From the NCBI GenBank assembly GCA_947625475.1, contig CANQOL010000001.1, positions 1-64,000 on the forward strand: DNA of 64,000 bases, given 5' to 3'. Within the stretch, counting starts at the first letter, position 1. The number at the start of each line of letters is the position of its first letter. The notes beneath the pieces were generated by a model. That model ran no database searches, had not been told where the DNA came from, and saw only the letters and a program-made list of their open reading frames with translations. A program made the translations under genes and the position numbers. Origin of the DNA: an uncultured Acetatifactor sp. Lineage in GTDB: Bacteria; Bacillota; Clostridia; Lachnospirales; Lachnospiraceae. Shown piece after piece: positions 54,275-64,000 of the stretch.

Positions 54275-55297
54275 CTAAAATTGTCCCACCTCCTCCGCCT
54301 CCCTGTACATCAGATCGTCCTCCGGCTGAATCTGCCCGGGCTCTGCCTTTACCATATCCCGCAGCATAGCCATGCAGAACGCTTTCTCTGCCCCGGCAAG
54401 CTGCGCCTCCTCTATATTCCGCTTCCAATATCTCCCATACCGCTCCCGCCAACGGATCAAATGCTCCAAATACACAGCCCGATCCCCGCCGGACGCCAAA
54501 AAATCCTCCACACGCCGAAAAGACTCCGTCATATCAGATATATTTTTTTGAATCGCCTGAAAGGACCGCAGGTTTATGTTGGACTCAGGATGCTCCTTGT
54601 AATAATAGACCGCCTCCTCCGCAAAAGCACATTTTTTCATCACCGACAAAATAACGGAAGAATAAATAAAGTCCTCCAGCATAACCAGATGACCCTGAAA
54701 AGACTCCAAAACTGGCAGACATTCCCCTATGCGCGCTCTCTTATACAGCTTATTCCAGACCACATGCCAGTGGTAATTGGTTCCCTCCTGCTGCCAGTAC
54801 CGCTCATAAAAGTCTTTCCCGCCCTGCCCGGCCTCCCGCGATAACAGACACCCCGTCTGCAGGTAGGCGTGGGCGTCCGCACTGACATTCACAATCTTCC
54901 CCACCGCAAAATCCGCACCCTCCTGCTCCGCTGCGCGGTACAGCCGGTCAAAATAACCCTCTGAAACAAGATCATCGCTGTCCACAAAACCGATATAATC
55001 CCCCTCCGCCCTCTGAATCCCACATAAACGCGCCCGATACAGTCCCACATTTTGTTTCAGGTTATAAATCCGAATCCTGCCTGACCTCTTTTGATAGGTC
55101 TTTACAATTTTAAGGCTTCTGTCCGTAGAGCCGTCATTGACACAAAGCATTTCAAAAGGACACTCTGTCCCGCTTATAATACTCTCGAGGCAGTCAGCAA
55201 TCCATTTCTCTGCATTGTAAAACGGCACAATAATAGATACCTTTGGGGGTGCCGTCCGCTTTTCCCTAATCTTCCTCTTCCATAACCGCGCTGACAA
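54275..55297 (-). CDS. Family 2 glycosyltransferase
   Basis: A 340-residue GT-A glycosyltransferase. KVSIIVPFYNAEKWIADCLE, VNDGSTDRS and the metal-binding DxD (FVDSDD) are at the expected places. The start is a TTG at 55297 with AAGGAAG upstream; no ATG is in frame before the catalytic domain. It overlaps the gene upstream by 32 bp. As the last gene of the surface-polymer operon it probably adds a sugar to a cell-wall or capsular chain. Confidence 0.87.
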   Translation of the reverse strand: MSARLWKRKIREKRTAPPKVSIIVPFYNAEKWIADCLESIISGTECPFEMLCVNDGSTDRSLKIVKTYQKRSGRIRIYNLKQNVGLYRARLCGIQRAEGDYIGFVDSDDLVSEGYFDRLYRAAEQEGADFAVGKIVNVSADAHAYLQTGCLLSREAGQGGKDFYERYWQQEGTNYHWHVVWNKLYKRARIGECLPVLESFQGHLVMLEDFIYSSVILSVMKKCAFAEEAVYYYKEHPESNINLRSFQAIQKNISDMTESFRRVEDFLASGGDRAVYLEHLIRWRERYGRYWKRNIEEAQLAGAEKAFCMAMLRDMVKAEPGQIQPEDDLMYREAEEVGQF

Positions 55298-58200
55298 TGT
55301 CTTCCTTTATCCTTTCTCCGGCCAGGCCGTCCCGAAAAGGAATACAGGCCGCATAAGCCTTCTCCCTTTTCACCCGTCCCACATCCTTTCCCTCGCAGAA
55401 CCGTTCCAGGAACCGGATCATATCCTCGCACGTGTTCCCCTGCTCATAGCTTTTGACCAGAGGTTCAATCGCCCTGGTAACCGGCTCATAATAATTCCGA
55501 TTGGTCAGGAAAAGCACCGGCACATTCAAAGCGCCGGCCTCCACCATAACCGCGCTGCGGTCTATTATGACACAGTCCGCGTTCACCAGAGATGCCCTGT
55601 AGTCTTCACGCTCTTCCACCCAGGCATTCTCCGCCTCCGAAAAACAGGAAACAATCCTCTCCGTCATTTCGCGGGTTCTCGGATCCTTTCTCTCCTCCAG
55701 GAATTTGGGATGCGGCATCAAAATAAAAAACAGCTTTTCATACTCCCTTATCTTTTCCGCAAACCGCACATATTCCTCCAGCTCCGGCGTGACGGCCACA
55801 TTTACCCCTTTTTCCACAATTGTTTTCGGAAAATGAACCTTCCACAGCACGATGGGCCTTCCGGCCCGCCTCTTCTCCACATAGGCCGGGAGGGGAAATG
55901 GCTTCCCGGTATCGTAGGCGTCAAACCGCGGCAGTCCCGTTACCCTCACTGCCCTGCGATTTCCGCAGTATTTCCAGTAATCCTCTTTCATACAATCGGA
56001 AAATGTGTAGATTCTCCAGCAATTATTGATTACGTTTGTCTGAAAATGAAGCCTGTGGGAATCCTCCGTGTCCGAAATTTCCACCCCATAGGGGATGTAA
56101 ACCAGACGATATCCCCGCATCCGGAACACATTGGACCAGTGCTGCCTTTGCCTGTGCCACTCATCATAGGGAGTCTGGATCACCACCGCGTGAGGCGCAA
56201 ACTCCTCCATGGGGAACCTTTCGTACAGTTCATAGGGCAGCCCCTTTTCCTCCAGGAAATCCTTCGCATGCTGCATCTGCGTCTTTTCAGAGTTGGTCTC
56301 GTCCAGGAAAACCAGCCTTGCGTCAACTCTTTCATCCTCTGTGCAGGCCGCATAAAAAGATTCCCATGATGGCCAAAAGGAAGGGATCTGGAATAAAAAA
56401 ACAATGCGGATCCGCTCCCCCGGCCGGTAAGGCACCCGGTTTTGCCGGAACAAAAAATCTGTCAGCGCATTCTGCGTCCCTATATTTTCCTGCTCCAATA
56501 CCGCAAGGCGTTTCTCAAGACGCTGATATCTCTCCCATGTCCAGCGCTCAATCTGCTTGTCTACCCGGTAAAACTGCGCCTCCGAAACATCCTTGGTCAC
56601 ATTGCTTAAATGCTCAATATTTTTTGCCCCTATATGCAGGCTCAGGCTCTGAAGCATCTTCAGCGGCGCTTTTATCAGTATCCTGTATGCCCCCCGCTTA
56701 CAATTTCCAAACCAGGTCGGAATTTCCAGCGCCTCATAAATCCCGGAGGTCTCGGGAGGTTCAAACCACGGTTCATTGTATTTGGAAAAGCGCCACTTTG
56801 CTGTGATTGTTTTCAACAATTCCCTTTTCCCGTAAAACCGCACCCGCTGATTGGCCTTCCAGATATCCAGCAGCAAATTCCGCAGTTCCGTCAGCGCCGT
56901 CTGCTTTTGGGAATCCGGCAATTCCAGAAAAACATTCCTCCAGCTTCCCAGCATCCAGCATTTTTCCTTTGGCACTTCCATGCCCAGATTTTCAGAAAGC
57001 TGCCTTTTGATGATCTGGCACATTTCACTCTGGATAGCTGTTTCCTTCCCGAGGGAAATATTCTGCGCTCCCACACGGTACTCCCCGTAAATCAGAGGGA
57101 TCGTTTCAAAAGAAGTGACTTTTACCATCCTTGTCCAAAGTTCATAATCCTCCAATTCCGAGGATTTGTTATAATAAAGCTGATATTTTTCCACCGTCTC
57201 TTTCCGGAACATCACTGTGGAATGACAGGCATCGCAGAAAAAAAGGAGCTTCGCTCTCATCCCTGCCGCCGTCTGGGGTGGACGGTGGATAAACCCATCC
57301 GGCCGGCTTCCAAAATAATGCTGATAAAACTGCGTAATCCCAGTCTTTGGATGATGCTCCATGTAATGCACCTGTGTGCTGAGCCTTTTCGCGTTGGACA
57401 GATCGTCCGCGTCCAGCCGTGCCAGATAAGCCCCTCTGGCCTCCCGTATCCCCAGGTTCAGGGATTCCGGCAGGCCCAGATGTTCTTTATTTTCTATTAC
57501 CCGAATCCGGTGGTCGTACTTTTCATAATACCTTGCCAGCTCCGTACTGCCGTCTTCGTTCCCGTACTCACAGATCAAAAGGAGCTCCCAATCCTCATAT
57601 TCCTGCAGCAGAATACTGTCAATGCTCTCCCTGAGCGTGTGCATGGCACGGTATACAGGCATAATGACAGACACGGCCGGCCGCGGATTTCCTTCATGAG
57701 CAATCTGCTCATAAGTAAATTCCCGGAAGAAAATGCCGCAGGTTTTACACACCCAGTTCCAGCGCTTCCATAAGATCCTGTGCAGGGCCGCCTCCTCAAT
57801 CTTATGCAGTCTCCGATTGGCGGCTTCCAGCTCCGTCAGCAGGCGATAGCTCTTTTTCAAAAACGCAGACCGCTGTCTCCTCGCAAAGCCTTCCGGCCGG
57901 CTTCTCCATCCCGCCAAGATCGGCAGATCCTCCTCCGGGACCTCTATGCCGAATTCCCGCAGGGAACGCGCATTGATCTCACAGACCTCCCTCTGCAGCC
58001 TCTCACCCTTTTCCAGAGAAATATTGTCAAATCCCCAGCGGTGACTGACCAACACCTCCGGCAGATTGACCAGCCTGGCCTGAAACATAATCCTTGTCCA
58101 AAGATCAAAGTCCTCTCCCAGCCGATTCCCGTCGTATTTCCAGCCGTTTTTCAAAAACAGCTCCCTGCGGAAGAACACTGAGCAATGGCTGATCTCACAG

Positions 58201-58661
58201 CCAAACAATAATCCCGCTTTCAGTTCTTCCCCCTCCCGGGGAACCTCCTCCACATAACTTCTGTCCGGTAGCACACTGCGCTGCATGGTTCCGCACAAAG
58301 CCACATCCGGATGCTCCCTCATATAGCTAAGCTGCTTTTCAAACCTCTCCGGGTCAGAGGGGTCGTCCACATCCACCCTCGCAATAAACTCTCCCACAGC
58401 CGCCTGAATTCCCCGGTTCAAGGATTCTGCCAGGCCCAGCTTCTCCTCATTTTGAAGCAGACGGATCCTGGGATCCCCTGCCCCATAGTCCCGGACAATT
58501 TCCGCGCAGCCGTCGTCACTGCCATACTCATTTACGATGATAAACTCCCAGTCTGTAAAGGTCTGACGCTGGATGCTGCAAAGGCACTCCTCTATATATG
58601 TCCGGCCATTGTAGAGTGGCAGGACTGCGGATATCACAACTTGACTTTCCTCGGCCGCCAT
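55266..58661 (-). CDS. Tandem GT2 glycosyltransferase fused to a CDP-glycerol glycerophosphotransferase-like domain
   Basis: A 1131-residue three-part protein. Two GT2 domains each begin with the family pattern (AVLPLYNGRTYIEECL, then VSVIMPVYRAMHTLRESI) and have VDVDDPSD and LDADDLS metal motifs. From about residue 770 a GT-B-like domain resembles CDP-glycerol glycerophosphotransferases (MPHPKF, IIDRSAVMVEAGALNVPV). Such proteins build teichoic-acid-like or sugar-phosphate polymers at the membrane face. The start is uncertain: an ATG at 58700 overlaps the upstream gene by 16 bp; 58661 has AAGGAAGGA upstream at long spacing. Confidence 0.87.
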   Translation of the reverse strand: MAAEESQVVISAVLPLYNGRTYIEECLCSIQRQTFTDWEFIIVNEYGSDDGCAEIVRDYGAGDPRIRLLQNEEKLGLAESLNRGIQAAVGEFIARVDVDDPSDPERFEKQLSYMREHPDVALCGTMQRSVLPDRSYVEEVPREGEELKAGLLFGCEISHCSVFFRRELFLKNGWKYDGNRLGEDFDLWTRIMFQARLVNLPEVLVSHRWGFDNISLEKGERLQREVCEINARSLREFGIEVPEEDLPILAGWRSRPEGFARRQRSAFLKKSYRLLTELEAANRRLHKIEEAALHRILWKRWNWVCKTCGIFFREFTYEQIAHEGNPRPAVSVIMPVYRAMHTLRESIDSILLQEYEDWELLLICEYGNEDGSTELARYYEKYDHRIRVIENKEHLGLPESLNLGIREARGAYLARLDADDLSNAKRLSTQVHYMEHHPKTGITQFYQHYFGSRPDGFIHRPPQTAAGMRAKLLFFCDACHSTVMFRKETVEKYQLYYNKSSELEDYELWTRMVKVTSFETIPLIYGEYRVGAQNISLGKETAIQSEMCQIIKRQLSENLGMEVPKEKCWMLGSWRNVFLELPDSQKQTALTELRNLLLDIWKANQRVRFYGKRELLKTITAKWRFSKYNEPWFEPPETSGIYEALEIPTWFGNCKRGAYRILIKAPLKMLQSLSLHIGAKNIEHLSNVTKDVSEAQFYRVDKQIERWTWERYQRLEKRLAVLEQENIGTQNALTDFLFRQNRVPYRPGERIRIVFLFQIPSFWPSWESFYAACTEDERVDARLVFLDETNSEKTQMQHAKDFLEEKGLPYELYERFPMEEFAPHAVVIQTPYDEWHRQRQHWSNVFRMRGYRLVYIPYGVEISDTEDSHRLHFQTNVINNCWRIYTFSDCMKEDYWKYCGNRRAVRVTGLPRFDAYDTGKPFPLPAYVEKRRAGRPIVLWKVHFPKTIVEKGVNVAVTPELEEYVRFAEKIREYEKLFFILMPHPKFLEERKDPRTREMTERIVSCFSEAENAWVEEREDYRASLVNADCVIIDRSAVMVEAGALNVPVLFLTNRNYYEPVTRAIEPLVKSYEQGNTCEDMIRFLERFCEGKDVGRVKREKAYAACIPFRDGLAGERIKEDIVSAVMEEED

Positions 58662-58684
58662 ATTGCTTGAAATTCCTTCCTTCT

Positions 58685-60793
58685 TCAAAAGTGCTGACAT
58701 AAAAATTCATACGTTGTCTGGGGAACCAGTTCTTTTATTTCTTCCCACTTTTTCTCCTTCAGGCATTCTCTCACCCTCGAAGCAGATATTACATTCCCAC
58801 CGCATGCTTTTCGGGGGACTTCACGAACTTCCAACCCATATTTAGGTAATATCTCTTTCATACTTTGATTGTACTGAGCTGTAACCGGATCTAATGGCTC
58901 CTCCCCAACAAACCGCACTGTAATATCCAGAGTTGGTGCAATTTCTTCCGCGAATATTTCAACATCCAGAGATGTATCTATTACCGTTCCCTGCAAATTT
59001 GCTTTGTCAAAATACTCAGAAAATGTTTGTGAAGATATGATAAATTCACCGCTGGGAAGGCATTTCACATTTTTTAAATGCGACGTTCCTTTCTTCACCA
59101 GTTCTATTCGATCTTCAAATTTAAAATAGGATTTATCCTCTTCAACAACAAATACATACAAATACGAAACTTGTGATGCAGCATATTCAATCAAATATTG
59201 ATGTCCCAGCGTAAATGGGTTACAATTCATAACAATCGCGCCTATCCTTTGTTTTTCATGAATTGCTTCCGACAGGATCAAGTTTTTATATGCTTTCAAC
59301 TTCGGATCACCTGCGTACATATTCTTTTTGTCATGTGTACTGTCGTCCTTTTTTCTAACCTCTGGTTTGCCTCCAATAAATCCACGATGCGACTGCACAT
59401 AATCAAATAATAGTTGACTGACTGCTTTCATCCCTTCCCGGCCGCAGTGAACCGGCAAATCATAATAAAAATCTGTTCCATACTTTGCAAGCAATTTCTG
59501 GAAGGCGGGAAGCACATCTAAATCCCAGTAAACACCTCGGAACGTTTGATCCAGCATAAAAACTTTATCTCCATTCTTGATGTCATAATCCTCCAAAATA
59601 TTGCAAAAATAATATCTATCAGCCTCATTGGGAAGCCCCAAAGCAATTACCCGATATGGAAATGACTTTTGGTTAAATAACTCCTGTAAATAATATCCTA
59701 GACTATCTTCATCTCGACTAAACAAACTTGATACTATACAAGAACCAACCAAATAAATTGTGTTCTTATAATTTTTGGGAATGTTAATTACTAATCGAGA
59801 TTTATTTACATAATTGATATATTTCCCATTAAAATCCGCAAAATATATCTTTCCTCTTTGTTTCTTTATTCTTTTCGCTAATGAATGACGCTCTTCATTA
59901 AATTCTTTTACCTCTTCGCTATCGGTCTTCCATCCGTTTTGTCTTGCTAACCATTCAATTCGTTCCTCAAGCGTCATATGATCCTGTTTGGTAATTTTAA
60001 TACTTAGATCTTTTTCTGTTGGGATCCTTACCGTCAAAAATTCACAGCCTTTATCCGCCAATTCACCCTTCCACTTTTGTGCCATATATGAGTTCATATA
60101 TCGCATAAATTCCTGTCCCTTTAAAAGTTTATTAATATATATAGCATCTACCTTGCTCTTTCTAACATAAAGGCTCTCATCCAAGTGGCGCATTGTCCAA
60201 TCGCTGATGAGCAACAAATCAATATCCCCTGCTTCAAATACAGATTTTATGGAGTCTACAAATATGATATTTGCATCGGAATTTAAATAATCTACTTTAC
60301 AATATTTCTTTAACTTGGTATTTTCATATATTCCTATTACTTCAACCCCTTCACATTGAAGTAAAATATTAGAAAAAGCGAGCGCCTGCTTATCAATGCC
60401 CCAAAATGCCACTCTGGTATAATGCTTTTCACGAAAATAATACCCTATATCATATTTTTTCTCTTTTAAGTAATTTAAATATGTCACTGAATTAATTATG
60501 TCATTATCCCATGTTTGATCCGTACAAATAATCCCCCCCTTTATTACACGATTTTTATCAACAACGGGCAAAATACCATTATAGATATTTTTTGCCATGA
60601 TCAATGCAACCTGCTGTTGTATATCAAGATTTAAAGAAAAATAATTATCTGGGAACTCATCTTCATAAACGCAGGGTATCTTCTTTATGCTGTCACAACT
60701 GCCTCCATCCTTGCAATGATCCATCTTGTATGCTCCTAATAATTCCTGTTTATCATTTACAAGGAATACAGTTCCTTTAACAGAAGACAACAA
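58685..60793 (-). CDS. CBS/SGNH-like/cytidylyltransferase fusion protein, 5' end shifted at a G9 run
   Basis: The continuous frame from the TTG at 60793 encodes 702 residues. Parts: a CBS-like N-terminus (GTVFLVNDKQELLGAY, NGILPVVDKNRVIKGG), a Rossmann-like section, an SGNH-hydrolase-like section (VGSCIVSSL, then DLPVHCGREGM) and a C-terminal nucleotidyltransferase of the CitC/TagD superfamily (NPFTLGHQYL and ISASRVR as the T-x-G-H and ISxxR motifs). With one extra G in the run at 60805-60813 the protein would start at the ATG at 60873, which has GAGG upstream, and be 729 residues. As sequenced the upstream start ends after 23 codons. The sequence is AT-richer than the flanking core genes. 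Confidence 0.75.
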   Translation of the reverse strand: MLSSVKGTVFLVNDKQELLGAYKMDHCKDGGSCDSIKKIPCVYEDEFPDNYFSLNLDIQQQVALIMAKNIYNGILPVVDKNRVIKGGIICTDQTWDNDIINSVTYLNYLKEKKYDIGYYFREKHYTRVAFWGIDKQALAFSNILLQCEGVEVIGIYENTKLKKYCKVDYLNSDANIIFVDSIKSVFEAGDIDLLLISDWTMRHLDESLYVRKSKVDAIYINKLLKGQEFMRYMNSYMAQKWKGELADKGCEFLTVRIPTEKDLSIKITKQDHMTLEERIEWLARQNGWKTDSEEVKEFNEERHSLAKRIKKQRGKIYFADFNGKYINYVNKSRLVINIPKNYKNTIYLVGSCIVSSLFSRDEDSLGYYLQELFNQKSFPYRVIALGLPNEADRYYFCNILEDYDIKNGDKVFMLDQTFRGVYWDLDVLPAFQKLLAKYGTDFYYDLPVHCGREGMKAVSQLLFDYVQSHRGFIGGKPEVRKKDDSTHDKKNMYAGDPKLKAYKNLILSEAIHEKQRIGAIVMNCNPFTLGHQYLIEYAASQVSYLYVFVVEEDKSYFKFEDRIELVKKGTSHLKNVKCLPSGEFIISSQTFSEYFDKANLQGTVIDTSLDVEIFAEEIAPTLDITVRFVGEEPLDPVTAQYNQSMKEILPKYGLEVREVPRKACGGNVISASRVRECLKEKKWEEIKELVPQTTYEFLCQHF

Positions 60794-60804
60794 AGCATCC
60801 TCTA

Positions 60805-60813
60805 CCCCCCCCC
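60805..60813 (-). other. Homopolymeric G9 tract, candidate phase-variation switch
   Basis: Nine C on the plus strand, G on the minus strand, 21 codons into a frame starting at the ATG at 60873. With nine G the frame reads to a TAG directly after the tract. With ten G (or seven) it joins the 702-residue frame with a CBS-like junction (MSEILGGGGVEDALLSSVKG). Confidence 0.85.
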
Positions 60814-60916
60814 AAGAATTTCTGACATTCTATAAATTGTGATGTCTTCAGTTTTTATATTTATATTTTTCATCATTTTTCCTCGTTTTCGCCGAATTAC
60901 AATTCACATTTCTATC

Positions 60917-61495
60917 CTAGGTGAGGTTTCCATTTAACCTTTTTCCCTGTAGATATTTTATCGTTGTCGATGGCACCAGCTTTGAAACTCCTTCCATGTC
61001 CCCTTCCTCTAACAGCATTCTCACCCGGCTGGCACTGATTACTCCGCCCTCCGTTTCCTTTCGGGGAATGACACGAAACTCCACTCCGTATTTTGGCAGG
61101 ATTCTCGCCATGGTCTCATTATATTGACGGGTCACTTTGTCTAAGGGCTCCTCTCCCGCAAACCGCACAGTGATCCCCAAGGCCGGCGCAATCTCCTTCC
61201 CAAACAGCTCCACATCCATGCTGGGATCCACCGTGCTCTCCTGCAGCTGGGATTTGTTGAAATATCCTTCAAAAGTCAGGCTGGAGATGATAAACTTTCC
61301 ACTGGGCAGCACCGTTACATTTTTCAAATCACTGGTTCCCTTCCTCACCAGCTCTATACGGTCAGCAAAAGGGAATATGCTTCTGTCCTCCTCCACTACA
61401 AACACGTACAGCCGCTCTACACACCCTGCCGCATACTCAATCAAATACCTGTGCCCCAGGGTAAAGGGATTGCAGTTCATTACGATGCTTCCCAC
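60917..61495 (-). CDS. Cytidylyltransferase-like C-terminal half, split off by a frameshift
   Basis: The frame encodes a CitC/TagD-type nucleotidyltransferase (NPFTLGHRYLIEYAA and ISASRVRMLLEE), parallel to the C-terminus of the 58685 gene. No ribosome binding site precedes any possible start; the GTG at 61495 is inside what reads as a continuous protein. Reading one base differently at the G7 run at 61561-61567 joins it to the SGNH-like gene, with linker SIQNQPELEEYKEKLRKLRP, which resembles the matching linker of the neighbouring fusion. I think it is the tail of that gene, not a separate gene. Confidence 0.8.
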   Translation of the reverse strand: MGSIVMNCNPFTLGHRYLIEYAAGCVERLYVFVVEEDRSIFPFADRIELVRKGTSDLKNVTVLPSGKFIISSLTFEGYFNKSQLQESTVDPSMDVELFGKEIAPALGITVRFAGEEPLDKVTRQYNETMARILPKYGVEFRVIPRKETEGGVISASRVRMLLEEGDMEGVSKLVPSTTIKYLQGKRLNGNLT

Positions 61496-62751
61496 AGCCG
61501 GACGGAGTTTTCGCAGCTTCTCTTTATACTCTTCCAGCTCAGGCTGATTTTGAATCGATACCCCCCCGCAATTTTGACAATTCCATACTGATGGACGGAA
61601 GGGAACTCCTCCGGAATACCAGAATACTCATACTGCCGGAAAAAATCGTTCTCCACTAAATATTCATAAAATTTCCGGGCGTAGATCTGATTGCCCCGCT
61701 CGTTGATGTGAGCACTGTCAGCAAATACTTCCCCATAGTTGTGGGGTCTGTCAAACAGATTCCGGCAGTCAAAGTACGGCAATTTTTCTGCACGCAGATT
61801 CTGCAAGCAGATCAGCACAATATCCCCCTCCTTTACTGGCAGACGATTCAAATTATAAAAAATGTCCTGATATCGGCCCGAATAAAACTGAGAGGCGTTC
61901 TCCACCCTCCACTCATGCCCATTCTCATTCAGGATCTGCTGCAGATAACTCTCAATGGTTTTATCATAGGGAGAACCGATTCCATAATAGACACAAGTCC
62001 CCATACACCAGATAGTATGCGAATACTCCCCATTCTGATAAGCAGTCAACCTTTTCCCGTTCTCAGTTCTGATCAGAGGATCAGTACTATCCACCAGATC
62101 TGAAGTTCCATCCAAGTTTGTTCTCGCATCGGAAAGAGCTAAAATAGAATACACCTGATCATTGCTGTATCCGAACTCGTCAAACCGGGTTTTCAACACC
62201 TTCCCATTCCGTTCTTTCAACTCTTTTCGAAGCACATGAACGTTTTTTTGAACAATCACTTTTTCCCTTTCTGTGGAGAGCTCATTTCTCTTCAATACGG
62301 GATACCCTGTCAGCACCACTCTGACCCCTCTATGGGTGTCCAAATAGTGATACAACGGTCTCTCCGCATACACATACTGAGCACACTGCCTCAACAGAGT
62401 ATCAAAATAGACCGTACGGTCTACAGGAAGCTGTGGAAAACGGTTTGTTGTCAAAAGAATGATTTTATCATACCCTTCCACTTTATTCAGATCTAGCTTC
62501 TCAAACCGACATCCTCCCACAACACATTCCATGCCATGGGACACCGCAGTTCCCTCCCCCGCCAACATTCGGAAAGCAGGCAATATCTCTTTATCATAGC
62601 GAAACTGTACATACAACTCCCACAGAAATTCCGGGTCATAGGAAGCAATTAAAGGCTTCTTAATCCCCCTATCCCTGCAGTACTGAGGCATGGAATATCC
62701 TCCATAAAAACAGTCCCTGAGCTGTATGCATTTCAACTGGTCCGGTGTCAT
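61480..62751 (-). CDS. SGNH-like N-terminal part of a frameshifted cytidylyltransferase fusion
   Basis: The 423-residue frame has an N-terminal domain of unknown type (about 1-160) and an SGNH-hydrolase-like domain (WCMGTCVYYGIGSP, then FADSAHINERGNQIYARKF as the D..H block). The last 26 residues (after about 397, SWKSIKRSCENSVRLWEAS) are out-of-frame translation past the G7 tract. With one more G the full protein would be about 611 residues and end in the cytidylyltransferase at 60917. AAGGAGAG precedes the ATG. The nucleophile position appears as GTC or GSC, so activity is open. Confidence 0.78.
   Translation of the reverse strand: MTPDQLKCIQLRDCFYGGYSMPQYCRDRGIKKPLIASYDPEFLWELYVQFRYDKEILPAFRMLAGEGTAVSHGMECVVGGCRFEKLDLNKVEGYDKIILLTTNRFPQLPVDRTVYFDTLLRQCAQYVYAERPLYHYLDTHRGVRVVLTGYPVLKRNELSTEREKVIVQKNVHVLRKELKERNGKVLKTRFDEFGYSNDQVYSILALSDARTNLDGTSDLVDSTDPLIRTENGKRLTAYQNGEYSHTIWCMGTCVYYGIGSPYDKTIESYLQQILNENGHEWRVENASQFYSGRYQDIFYNLNRLPVKEGDIVLICLQNLRAEKLPYFDCRNLFDRPHNYGEVFADSAHINERGNQIYARKFYEYLVENDFFRQYEYSGIPEEFPSVHQYGIVKIAGGYRFKISLSWKSIKRSCENSVRLWEAS
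61561..61567 (-). other. Homopolymeric G7 tract splitting the second fusion gene
   Basis: Seven C on the plus strand; on the minus strand GC followed by G7. Reading GCG GGG GGG then TAT leaves the frame; eight G would give GCG GGG GGG GTA and restore a continuous fusion of about 611 residues. Confidence 0.85.
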
Positions 62752-62791
62752 AAATCTTTCTCTCCTTATCTCCCATCATTCTATATCGAAA

Positions 62792-63529
62792 TTAAACTTT
62801 CCCCGACACACTGTTTTCCAAAAACGCTTCCAAATCCTCCGGCACACCGAGCCCCCACATTCCCTTCTGCAGGGAGCCGATGTTATAATAGACAAACTTC
62901 TTCTCCTTCTCAATCAGGATATTGTAAACAGGGGCAACATAAAATTCATTATTTACACGGATGTTTTTCCCTATCATTTCATGTGCCCCGGCAACAAAAT
63001 CGCTTCCCTTAGCAAAGTTGTAAATGCCTACGGTGGCTTCATCTGAAATTACTTCCTTCTCTCTTACCTCGGTCACAAAACCCTTTCCGTCATACTTAAT
63101 AAACGACCATTTGTTGTCGTGCGCAGTCATGGTCATGATAAGGCCGTCATACAAACTCTGCCTTTTCAGATAATTATTTATGTTTATATCAACATATTGG
63201 TCAGAATTTGCAATCATCAGCGGTTCATTGTTGTTTATGTACTTTTCCGCCAGCAGAACTGTGCAGGCCGCTCCCTCCGTCACCTGTGAAACAGGGACAA
63301 TCACACAGCCGGGAGCGATCTTTTTCAGCTTTTCGGTAAGACCGTACTTTTCTATATGCTCCGCAAGGCAAAGGTAAATAAATCTGTGCTCACATCCGGG
63401 TCTGAGATTGTCGGTTACAACCTCGATCATGTATTTCCCTTTTACATCAATCAGCGGCTTCGGCATTTTATAACCTGCATTGGCAAAGCGGCTTCCTCTT
63501 CCCGCCATGGGTATTACAATATTAAGCAT
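62792..63529 (-). CDS. Sugar nucleotidyltransferase
   Basis: A 245-residue enzyme of the NTP_transferase family (glucose-1-phosphate thymidylyltransferase/GlmU type). LNIVIPMAGRGSRFANAG is the nucleotide-binding signature, with ANSDQYVDI as the metal-binding DxxxD region. It would activate a sugar phosphate for the operon. The ATG at 63529 overlaps the cupin stop by 8 bp, and the next gene follows after 40 bp. Confidence 0.88.
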   Translation of the reverse strand: MLNIVIPMAGRGSRFANAGYKMPKPLIDVKGKYMIEVVTDNLRPGCEHRFIYLCLAEHIEKYGLTEKLKKIAPGCVIVPVSQVTEGAACTVLLAEKYINNNEPLMIANSDQYVDININNYLKRQSLYDGLIMTMTAHDNKWSFIKYDGKGFVTEVREKEVISDEATVGIYNFAKGSDFVAGAHEMIGKNIRVNNEFYVAPVYNILIEKEKKFVYYNIGSLQKGMWGLGVPEDLEAFLENSVSGKV

Positions 63530-63863
63530 TTTCCTCTTCCTCCTTCACCAGATACTTGTCGTTGTTCGCCCCCGGTATCTTTACTACCACGTTCACGCTG
63601 TCCTCCAGGGCCCGGAAACCCGTCACATCCCCCGGCTCTGCAATAATAATATCTCCCTCCGAGAACTCCTCTCCAAACATCCTCACACGTCCCAAAACCA
63701 CAACCGTAATTTCTGTAGCAATCTTGTGATAGTGAGCCTCCTCACTCTCCCCCGCACGGTAGCTCTTTACAGCCACTTCCACGTCTTTCGTCCGATACAG
63801 GGTCGGGGAAAAATTCCCCACAAACCATCCCTTCGTCATTTCCGAAAGCCTACTTGTCCGCAT
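63522..63863 (-). CDS. Small cupin-domain protein
   Basis: A 113-residue single-domain cupin. YRAGESEEAHYHKIATE carries the His-x-His-type metal ligands with Glu, and EGDIIIAEPGDVTGF is the second motif. Such proteins in sugar operons can be isomerases, epimerases or binding proteins; the exact role cannot be read. GGAGGAAG precedes the ATG. It overlaps the genes on both sides. Confidence 0.8.
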   Translation of the reverse strand: MRTSRLSEMTKGWFVGNFSPTLYRTKDVEVAVKSYRAGESEEAHYHKIATEITVVVLGRVRMFGEEFSEGDIIIAEPGDVTGFRALEDSVNVVVKIPGANNDKYLVKEEEENA

Positions 63864-64000
63864 CCTTCTTCCTCCTGCAGTATTCTTCGTACAATTCGAT
63901 CCCTTTGATATGGTTAAAATTGAAATACTGCTCCTTCTTTATCTTGTATGTCCCTATCCTCTTCTGGTTCAGTATCATTTCATTGTAAACAGGGCAGACA
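63850..64000 (-). CDS. C-terminal fragment of a sugar nucleotidyltransferase-like protein
   Basis: The minus-strand frame from the right edge ends at a TAG at 63850-63852. The last 50 residues contain CPVYNEMILNQKRIGTYKIK and GIELYEEYCRRKKDADK. The PVYN segment with following residues resembles the end of the neighbouring nucleotidyltransferase (APVYNILIEKEKKFVYY), so this is probably a paralogue, but only the tail is visible. It overlaps the cupin gene by 14 bp. Confidence 0.6.
   Translation of the reverse strand, partial: VCPVYNEMILNQKRIGTYKIKKEQYFNFNHIKGIELYEEYCRRKKDADK

Follow-up and report, generated by a model that had tools for sequence, protein, structure and literature searches.

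Putative phase-variable fusions of citrate lyase ligase-type and SGNH-like domains in a glycan gene cluster of an uncultured Acetatifactor

The best family match of the C-terminal halves of two fusion proteins (fusions 1 and 2) encoded by the DNA analyzed here ("the window": all 64,000 nt from position 1 to 64,000 of contig CANQOL010000001.1, assembly GCA_947625475.1, from an uncultured Acetatifactor sp. of the Lachnospiraceae) is citrate lyase ligase, CitC (EC 6.2.1.22; PF08218/TIGR00124). With CitC the fusions share a full-length C-terminal adenylating domain containing both motifs of the nucleotide site, but they exhibit an SGNH-like domain in place of the GNAT-like N-terminal domain of CitC, score below the TIGR00124 cut-off, carry homopolymeric tracts, and come from a genome in which the citrate lyase acyl carrier protein CitD was not found. 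A related nucleotidyltransferase is TmcAL, the tRNA(Met) cytidine acetate ligase (PF05636), to which the fusions show sub-threshold matches and which reportedly (Taniguchi 2018, cited in PMC6393311) catalyzes acetate-dependent acetylation. TmcAL works via an acetyl-AMP step and, unlike the fusions, acts on tRNA and is not known to have an SGNH domain. DltD is a cell-envelope acyltransferase of the SGNH type; in the D-alanylation of teichoic acid by the Dlt system, DltA adenylates, DltD is SGNH-like, and the target is a polyol-phosphate polymer. The fusions resemble Dlt in combining an adenylating enzyme with an SGNH-like transferase, but in Dlt the activities are divided among individual proteins, a carrier protein takes part and the adenylation fold is another one, whereas in the fusions both activities would reside in one chain. 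PatB, another envelope SGNH acyltransferase, is described in PMC9487903 as transferring an acyl group to a glycan via an acyl-enzyme on the block-I Ser and as being thought to receive this group through a membrane partner; the fusions differ in carrying an ATP-dependent ligase in the same chain and in the nucleophile, which is mostly Cys. Finally, PMC3068675 describes a homopolymeric tract in a surface-glycan-modifying gene, Cj1295 of C. jejuni, while many of the fusions, from gut Clostridia and Selenomonadales, have their tract in the linker between the domains.

We propose that the fusions act within a surface-glycan cluster as acyl-transfer enzymes that are driven by ATP and subject to phase variation, each copy being switched independently, a reading that we rate just short of evenly balanced. 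The CitC-type domain would adenylate a small carboxylate, most likely acetate, to acyl-AMP, and the fused SGNH-like domain would take over the acyl group on its Cys, as a thioester, or in some relatives on a Ser; the transfer of acetyl to a thiol by citrate lyase ligase provides a model for such a hand-over. The SGNH domain would then form an ester on the polymer or its precursor, at a sugar or a polyol, independently of acetyl-CoA. We infer the acyl-AMP chemistry, the Cys thioester and the acceptor. Gain or loss of bases in the homopolymeric tract, often situated in the flexible interdomain linker, would join or sever the ligase half, and the cell would thereby modify its surface, or not, independently through each copy. 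It is a more speculative extension, and a rather doubtful one, that these proteins represent a class of enzymes widespread among gut microbes, in which an ATP- and carboxylate-dependent acyl ligase is fused to a Cys-nucleophile SGNH acyltransferase decorating surface glycans, with a slippery tract placed repeatedly in the linker (poly-G in Clostridia, poly-C in Selenomonadales) whose slippage would uncouple acyl loading from transfer. If true, it would be a further biological use of the acetate-activating fold of CitC and TmcAL and would let surface glycans be acylated by a cytoplasmic route independent of acetyl-CoA, and gut anaerobes would gain a switch sited between two enzyme domains. Acylation of surface glycans matters for the adsorption of phages, for sensitivity to lysozyme and for recognition by the immune system.

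Among the open PubMed Central (PMC) papers matched, none joins citrate lyase ligase with SGNH or acetyl-AMP with citrate lyase ligase; judging by titles, those on citrate lyase ligase include one on a polysaccharide (PMC2810433) and none on phase variation. No paper uniting a CitC/TmcAL-type ligase, SGNH and phase-variable glycan features, and none in which such enzymes of gut Clostridia or Selenomonadales vary in phase through simple repeats, is among the matches listed, which is no proof of absence.

Domain composition of the fusions

The features of the two fusions, all on the minus strand, are as follows.

60917..61495, minus strand: CitC half of fusion 1 (PF08218, E-value 2e-65, spanning 2-182 of 182)
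61480..62751, minus strand: SGNH-like half of fusion 1, 423 aa, with G-T-C and H-x-N-E-x-G (alignments A1 and A3)
61561..61567, minus strand: G7 run in the fusion 1 linker, where the halves part frames
61993..61995, minus strand: codon of Cys253 of fusion 1, at the SGNH nucleophile position (Cys in 61/62 rows of A3 and 23/23 rows of A1)
58685..60793, minus strand: open part of fusion 2, 702 aa, with a CBS-like N-terminus, a Rossmann-like part (by eye), an SGNH-like and a CitC domain
59738..59740, minus strand: codon of the conserved Cys of fusion 2, residue 352, at the SGNH nucleophile position (Cys in 19/19 rows)
60533..60539, minus strand: G7 run within the CBS-like part of fusion 2
60805..60813, minus strand: G9 run immediately ahead of the open part of fusion 2

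The profile analysis confidently identified the CitC C-terminal domain in fusion 1 (235.5 bits, full length) and in fusion 2 (E-value 4.5e-70, 220.4 bits, residues 517-698), the PF08218 cut-off being 20.9 bits, and both C-terminal halves are assigned by sequence to the CitC type of the ATP/acetate-ligase family. The preliminary description of this DNA, which called them cytidylyltransferases, had thus named the wrong family; cytidylyltransferases such as TagD/TarI, which act on CTP and a polyol phosphate, belong to the same HIGH-motif superfamily, and PF01467 matches the fusions with E-values of 1.5e-4 and 0.0065. That description would have counted a lack of the nucleotidyltransferase sites as refuting its idea, but they turned out to be intact: the domain aligns along its whole length with true CitC, and the motifs NPFTLGH and ISASRVR are identical in both window fusions, their paralogue in the same genome and one true CitC (NPITLGH and ISASKVR in a second one). 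The PF05636 profile gives sub-threshold matches in both window proteins and E-values up to 0.1 in 45 of the 62 rows of alignment A3. Against the TIGR00124 equivalog model the fusions score 215.1 and 210.1 bits (cut-off 262.1). A GNAT-type N-terminal match is present in both true CitC proteins scanned (sub-threshold in L016, over the cut-off in L018), while profile scans found none in the window fusions, three other fusions, ten more, or the 62 rows of A3. Service of the fusions to citrate lyase was considered and rejected, because no match to CitD (PF06857) was found in their own genome, with a positive E. coli control.

The SGNH-like half was examined in several alignments. A3 comprises 62 rows, i.e. 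the copy on contig C4 of the same genome and 61 of 120 listed proteins (truncated and over-long ones, among others, were left out), and exhibits Cys at the last position of G-x-C in 61 rows and Ser in one, with all four named residues of H-x-N-E-x-G invariant; in A1 the Cys is found in all 23 rows, window included. A more diverse set of 64 rows (62 of the 73 frames with CitC motifs in the fetched loci of relatives, the C4 copy and fusion 2) shows Cys in 49 and Ser in 15 at the nucleophile position, Gly two residues before it in 62, the His in 64/64, and an Asp three residues before the His in 46. The Cys is read as the nucleophile because Ser occupies its place in the same architecture. The second family, to which fusion 2 belongs, possesses G-x-C and D-x3-H in 19/19 rows (G-S-C in fusion 2 itself). 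PF13472 (GDSL) matches 16/62 A3 rows and 2/10 Ser-type fusions at E-values up to 0.1; the window SGNH half has no significant Pfam match of its own, GDSL included, and a profile search of PDB sequences returned one weak GDSL chain (4rw0, E-value 0.41). In the structural model of the in-frame paralogue (predicted local distance difference test, pLDDT, 89.1) the Cys lies between the strand 245-250 and the helix 253-256 and the His just ahead of the helix 351-367, as expected for SGNH proteins; confidence in the linker is among the lowest of the model (block pLDDT 51, residues 395-401 below 50). The model of fusion 2 has a pLDDT of 85.5, and its N-terminus is predicted to be CBS-like, CBS chains matching at profile positions 13-112 (E-values 7e-4 to 0.06). 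The earlier suggestion that the SGNH part acts on acyl groups is compatible with a CitC partner and is kept as a putative role.

Homopolymeric tracts and reading frames

In this assembly both window fusions read out of frame, at G7 and G9, respectively. The halves of fusion 1 are each stop-free and lie in different frames that part at the G7 run, the SGNH frame ending about 26 residues past it. Fusion 2 is open directly after G9, from 60793 to 58685, and a short upstream frame stops right past this run; it is read as the missing N-terminus, since 16/18 relatives in alignment A2 reach 25-34 residues beyond the first residue of the window protein. A third copy in the same genome (contig C4, L045:883-2718) carries a G10 run in the SGNH-CitC linker and reads through it in frame. 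Thus the two fusions and their G runs, as noted in the preliminary description, are real, although fusion 1 does not read as a single open frame in this assembly. Among database proteins, P0010 corresponds to the window SGNH half plus one extra Gly at the run (a comparison of proteins only), three others (P0016, P0046 and P0071) end 7 to 26 residues past the Gly run, and a second-family protein, P0138, ends 3 residues past a GGG in its own linker. The number of runs carries no significance and was rejected as an argument, G7 matches in the window being fewer than in dinucleotide shuffles (7 vs 59 expected; G9: 1 vs 6.9); the excess over chance is in their placement, the paralogue and relatives having a tract in the same linker.

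For the relatives, the best 80 of at least 522 confirmed matches were fetched with their loci, and 78 SGNH-CitC linkers were placed in 72 of them. Fifteen of the 51 G/C tracts of at least 7 fall in linkers, which make up 12.1 of 1015 kb (1.2% of the DNA; binomial p 3e-17, a value that is too strong because related loci were treated as independent). Tracts of at least 6 are found in the linkers of 8/9 broken fusions and 10/69 intact ones (Fisher p 1.5e-5). The linker tracts of at least 7 are poly-G in three Ruminiclostridium-type and poly-C in twelve Selenomonadales fusions, and outside the 78 a Lachnospiraceae locus (L132) exhibits G10 between SGNH and CitC with the frame open; together these cases suggest at least three origins. 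Codon choice alone explains the tracts poorly: in eleven Selenomonadales loci 28% of the Pro codons are CCC, and GGG makes up 13% of those for Gly in four Ruminiclostridium loci (though 30% across seven genes of the window), yet 15/29 family-1-type linkers have a tract of at least 7. The arrangement is the layout of a simple-repeat switch, a tract inside the reading frame, some copies and relatives having the allele intact and others broken. Phase variation of the fusions, suggested in the preliminary description, is therefore well supported by the G10 paralogue in frame, the window G7 and G9 out of frame and the linker tracts of relatives; reversible switching itself, and the rates at which it would occur, we infer. 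The four surface states which that description expected from independent toggling of the two fusions would be a putative outcome.

Two observations may be added. On one Selenomonadales contig (locus L081) four SGNH-CitC linkers follow one another and differ in tract length and state, with a C14 in an intact fusion, a C10 in a broken one and two intact fusions lacking a tract, possibly a combinatorial array. The database protein P0005 is a mosaic, with the first 381 residues of the C4 copy and the last 76 of the window copy (61480-62751), produced either by recombination between paralogues or by a chimeric assembly.

Gene neighborhood and glycan context

The remaining genes of the string are also on the minus strand.

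54275..55297, minus strand: family 2 glycosyltransferase (GT2; PF00535, E-value 7.9e-38)
55266..58700, minus strand: 1144-aa transferase, GT2-GT2 plus a C-terminal CDP-glycerol glycerophosphotransferase-like domain (PF00535, 3.5e-57, two stretches)
62792..63529, minus strand: sugar-phosphate nucleotidyltransferase (PF00483, 6.2e-08)
63522..63863, minus strand: small cupin (PF07883, E-value 0.002, 18.3 bits, under the cut-off of 27.2)

According to the open reading frames and profile matches, the genes between 54275 and 63863 have close or overlapping ends, in agreement with the tight leftward operon proposed in the preliminary description, and genes on the same strand continue past the window end up to contig position ~76818. 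Of the other members named there, the nucleotidyltransferase is confirmed and the cupin stays under its curated cut-off, as does the CDP-glycerol-polymerase-like transferase: the 1144-aa protein has a PF04464-like domain, but at 17.6 bits (E-value 0.002; cut-off 22.1). Upstream of the window are found heptose-type proteins (an HddA-like kinase, a GmhA-like and an HddC-GmhB-like protein, all under equivalog cut-offs), a D-ribitol-5-phosphate cytidylyltransferase (NF001183, 318 bits, cut-off 166), beside it an alcohol dehydrogenase (TarJ-like by place only, with no family over cut-off in the library scanned), a 514-aa protein matching PF04464 (32.8 bits, over the cut-off of 22.1), and GT2-like and GDPD-like proteins recognized by eye; neither the GDPD-like protein nor an 875-aa protein has a family match. 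Tyrosine-recombinase-like frames (by eye) lie at the upstream border of the glycan cluster (L010:12815-14997), which would fit horizontal spread.

In two relatives from the rabbit gut (L083 and L090) the fusion sits with homologs of the GDPD-like protein (67-68% identity), a HAD protein (94%), the cupin (68%) and two nucleotidyltransferases (90-92% and 87-89%, the latter being the homolog of the gene at 62792-63529), while no relative of the polymerase-like domains or of TarI was found in these two loci. The preliminary description would have counted the lack of any genome with the whole set as refuting its idea, and this applies in part: these loci retain nucleotidyltransferase, cupin, HAD and fusion, without the polymerase-like and TarI members. 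In a survey that used 50 of the 80 loci and reached 45 genomes, PF04464 was matched in 33/45 fusion-bearing genomes vs 3/14 control genomes, and it lies within 10 kb of 9/53 CitC domains (in 8 genomes; counted over the 33 genomes and G099), with 1.1 expected (Poisson p 3e-6); in another genome, L017, the adjacent PF04464 protein scores 21.9 bits against the cut-off of 22.1. The surface-polymer context foreseen in the preliminary description is thus corroborated by CDP-glycerol-polymerase-like transferases near some CitC domains of other genomes. A broad glycan synteny was rejected, since no glycan family dominated in a Pfam scan of neighbors (150/181 proteins of 110-600 aa, 69 loci); PF08218 and the TPM domain came top with 6 each, and the glycan-type families shown reached at most 3 each. 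In the absence of broad synteny, the glycan link rests on the window cluster, L083/L090 and PF04464 proximity, and the link to teichoic acid is a partial one.

Weighing of the alternatives

Several points weigh against the acyl-transfer proposal. The SGNH assignment leans on motifs and weak profile matches; the Asp is absent from 18/64 diverse rows, and the structure searches list no SGNH chain among the 50 matches given by either, all of them covering the CitC domain only (since that domain filled the match lists, these searches do not test the SGNH half). No assay of an SGNH-CitC enzyme was found among the open PMC papers listed. The switch is not universal among fusions, since 63/78 placed linkers have no tract of at least 7; one broken fusion (L141) has no tract, and the runs of fusion 2 are at or near its N-terminus, not in the linker. 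A length change within the species is suggested by one protein pair (that of P0010), with both lengths leaving the halves apart, and assembly errors at homopolymers are possible. Finally, PF04464 was not found in 12/45 fusion-bearing genomes.

Could the relay be the same and its cargo different? Both true CitC proteins examined have EP-x-C where the fusions have EP-x-D, a further point against the proposal in its acetate form, because of which the substrate may differ from that of CitC. The acyl group could be that of lactate, glycerate or another small acid rather than acetate, or the acceptor could be an amine, a carrier or a nucleotide sugar; the heterogeneity of neighbor genes across lineages fits this, while the alignment of the CitC domain over its whole length speaks against it. 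We regard this variant as unlikely, though it deserves consideration. Or perhaps the SGNH half is a stand-alone esterase, and loss of the CitC half flips the enzyme from adding to removing acyl groups? The off state does leave an SGNH frame that ends shortly past the run in the window and in three relatives (~26 and 7 to 26 residues), but Cys in place of Ser is unusual in a hydrolase and the truncated product may be unstable, which makes an esterase improbable.

That the frames are broken by errors of assembly or belong to decaying pseudogenes seems slightly less probable still. Homopolymers are error-prone and the genomes are drafts, many of them metagenome-assembled; against this, both halves of fusion 1 are stop-free, linker tracts are found in Clostridia as well as in Selenomonadales, and at the DNA level the CitC half is 92-100% identical to the in-frame C4 paralogue and most of the SGNH half 53-89%, a contrast that suggests exchange between copies. 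Even less favored is the idea, put forward in the preliminary description, that the fusions are cytidylyltransferases supplying a CDP-polyol to the polymerase-like transferase: the shared superfamily (with its PF01467 matches) and the CDP-polyol-type transferases nearby agree with it, but PF08218 is better by some 60 orders of magnitude, an SGNH domain would contribute nothing to such a reaction, and CDP-ribitol is covered by the separate upstream cytidylyltransferase, so that on account of the family match and this gene the role was rejected. Programmed or leaky ribosomal or polymerase slippage, yielding a steady full-length fraction and no heritable switch, is very improbable, for although long G runs are slippery and the broken alleles are one or two bases off frame, tract lengths and states vary among copies and relatives as for a mutating tract.

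Long G runs were also seen elsewhere in the same genome. In the contigs fetched from it (C4, C9, C12, C14, C15, C17, C21, C35, C50 and C73), 12/15 runs of at least 8 G are followed by TA; this count covers twelve stretches outside the window, where runs are also present at 60805-60813 and 61561-61567. The string GGGGGGGTAT occurs 11 times in this genome (reversed control 0), and across 60 further genomes from the order its form with 8 G occurs 28 times, vs 11 for the control. Of the other proteins with long G runs, nine were scanned, several of them glycan-type (L045:5894-6652, L049:3492-4316, L054:6103-6933, L055:2123-5353, L051:7605-8231, L056:37-1206): a hexapeptide transferase, two CTP_transf_3 cytidylyltransferases and a sub-threshold GDSL protein, besides a large HAD protein in which an SGNH-like G-T-C was recognized by eye; the rest are one AraC-type regulator, one protein matching only ILEI and two without a match. 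A 1075-aa protein encoded just upstream of an SGNH-CitC fusion at L068:4305-7532 and L099:4765-7992 resembles (by eye) the HAD protein of contig C50, which reads through a G9 run.

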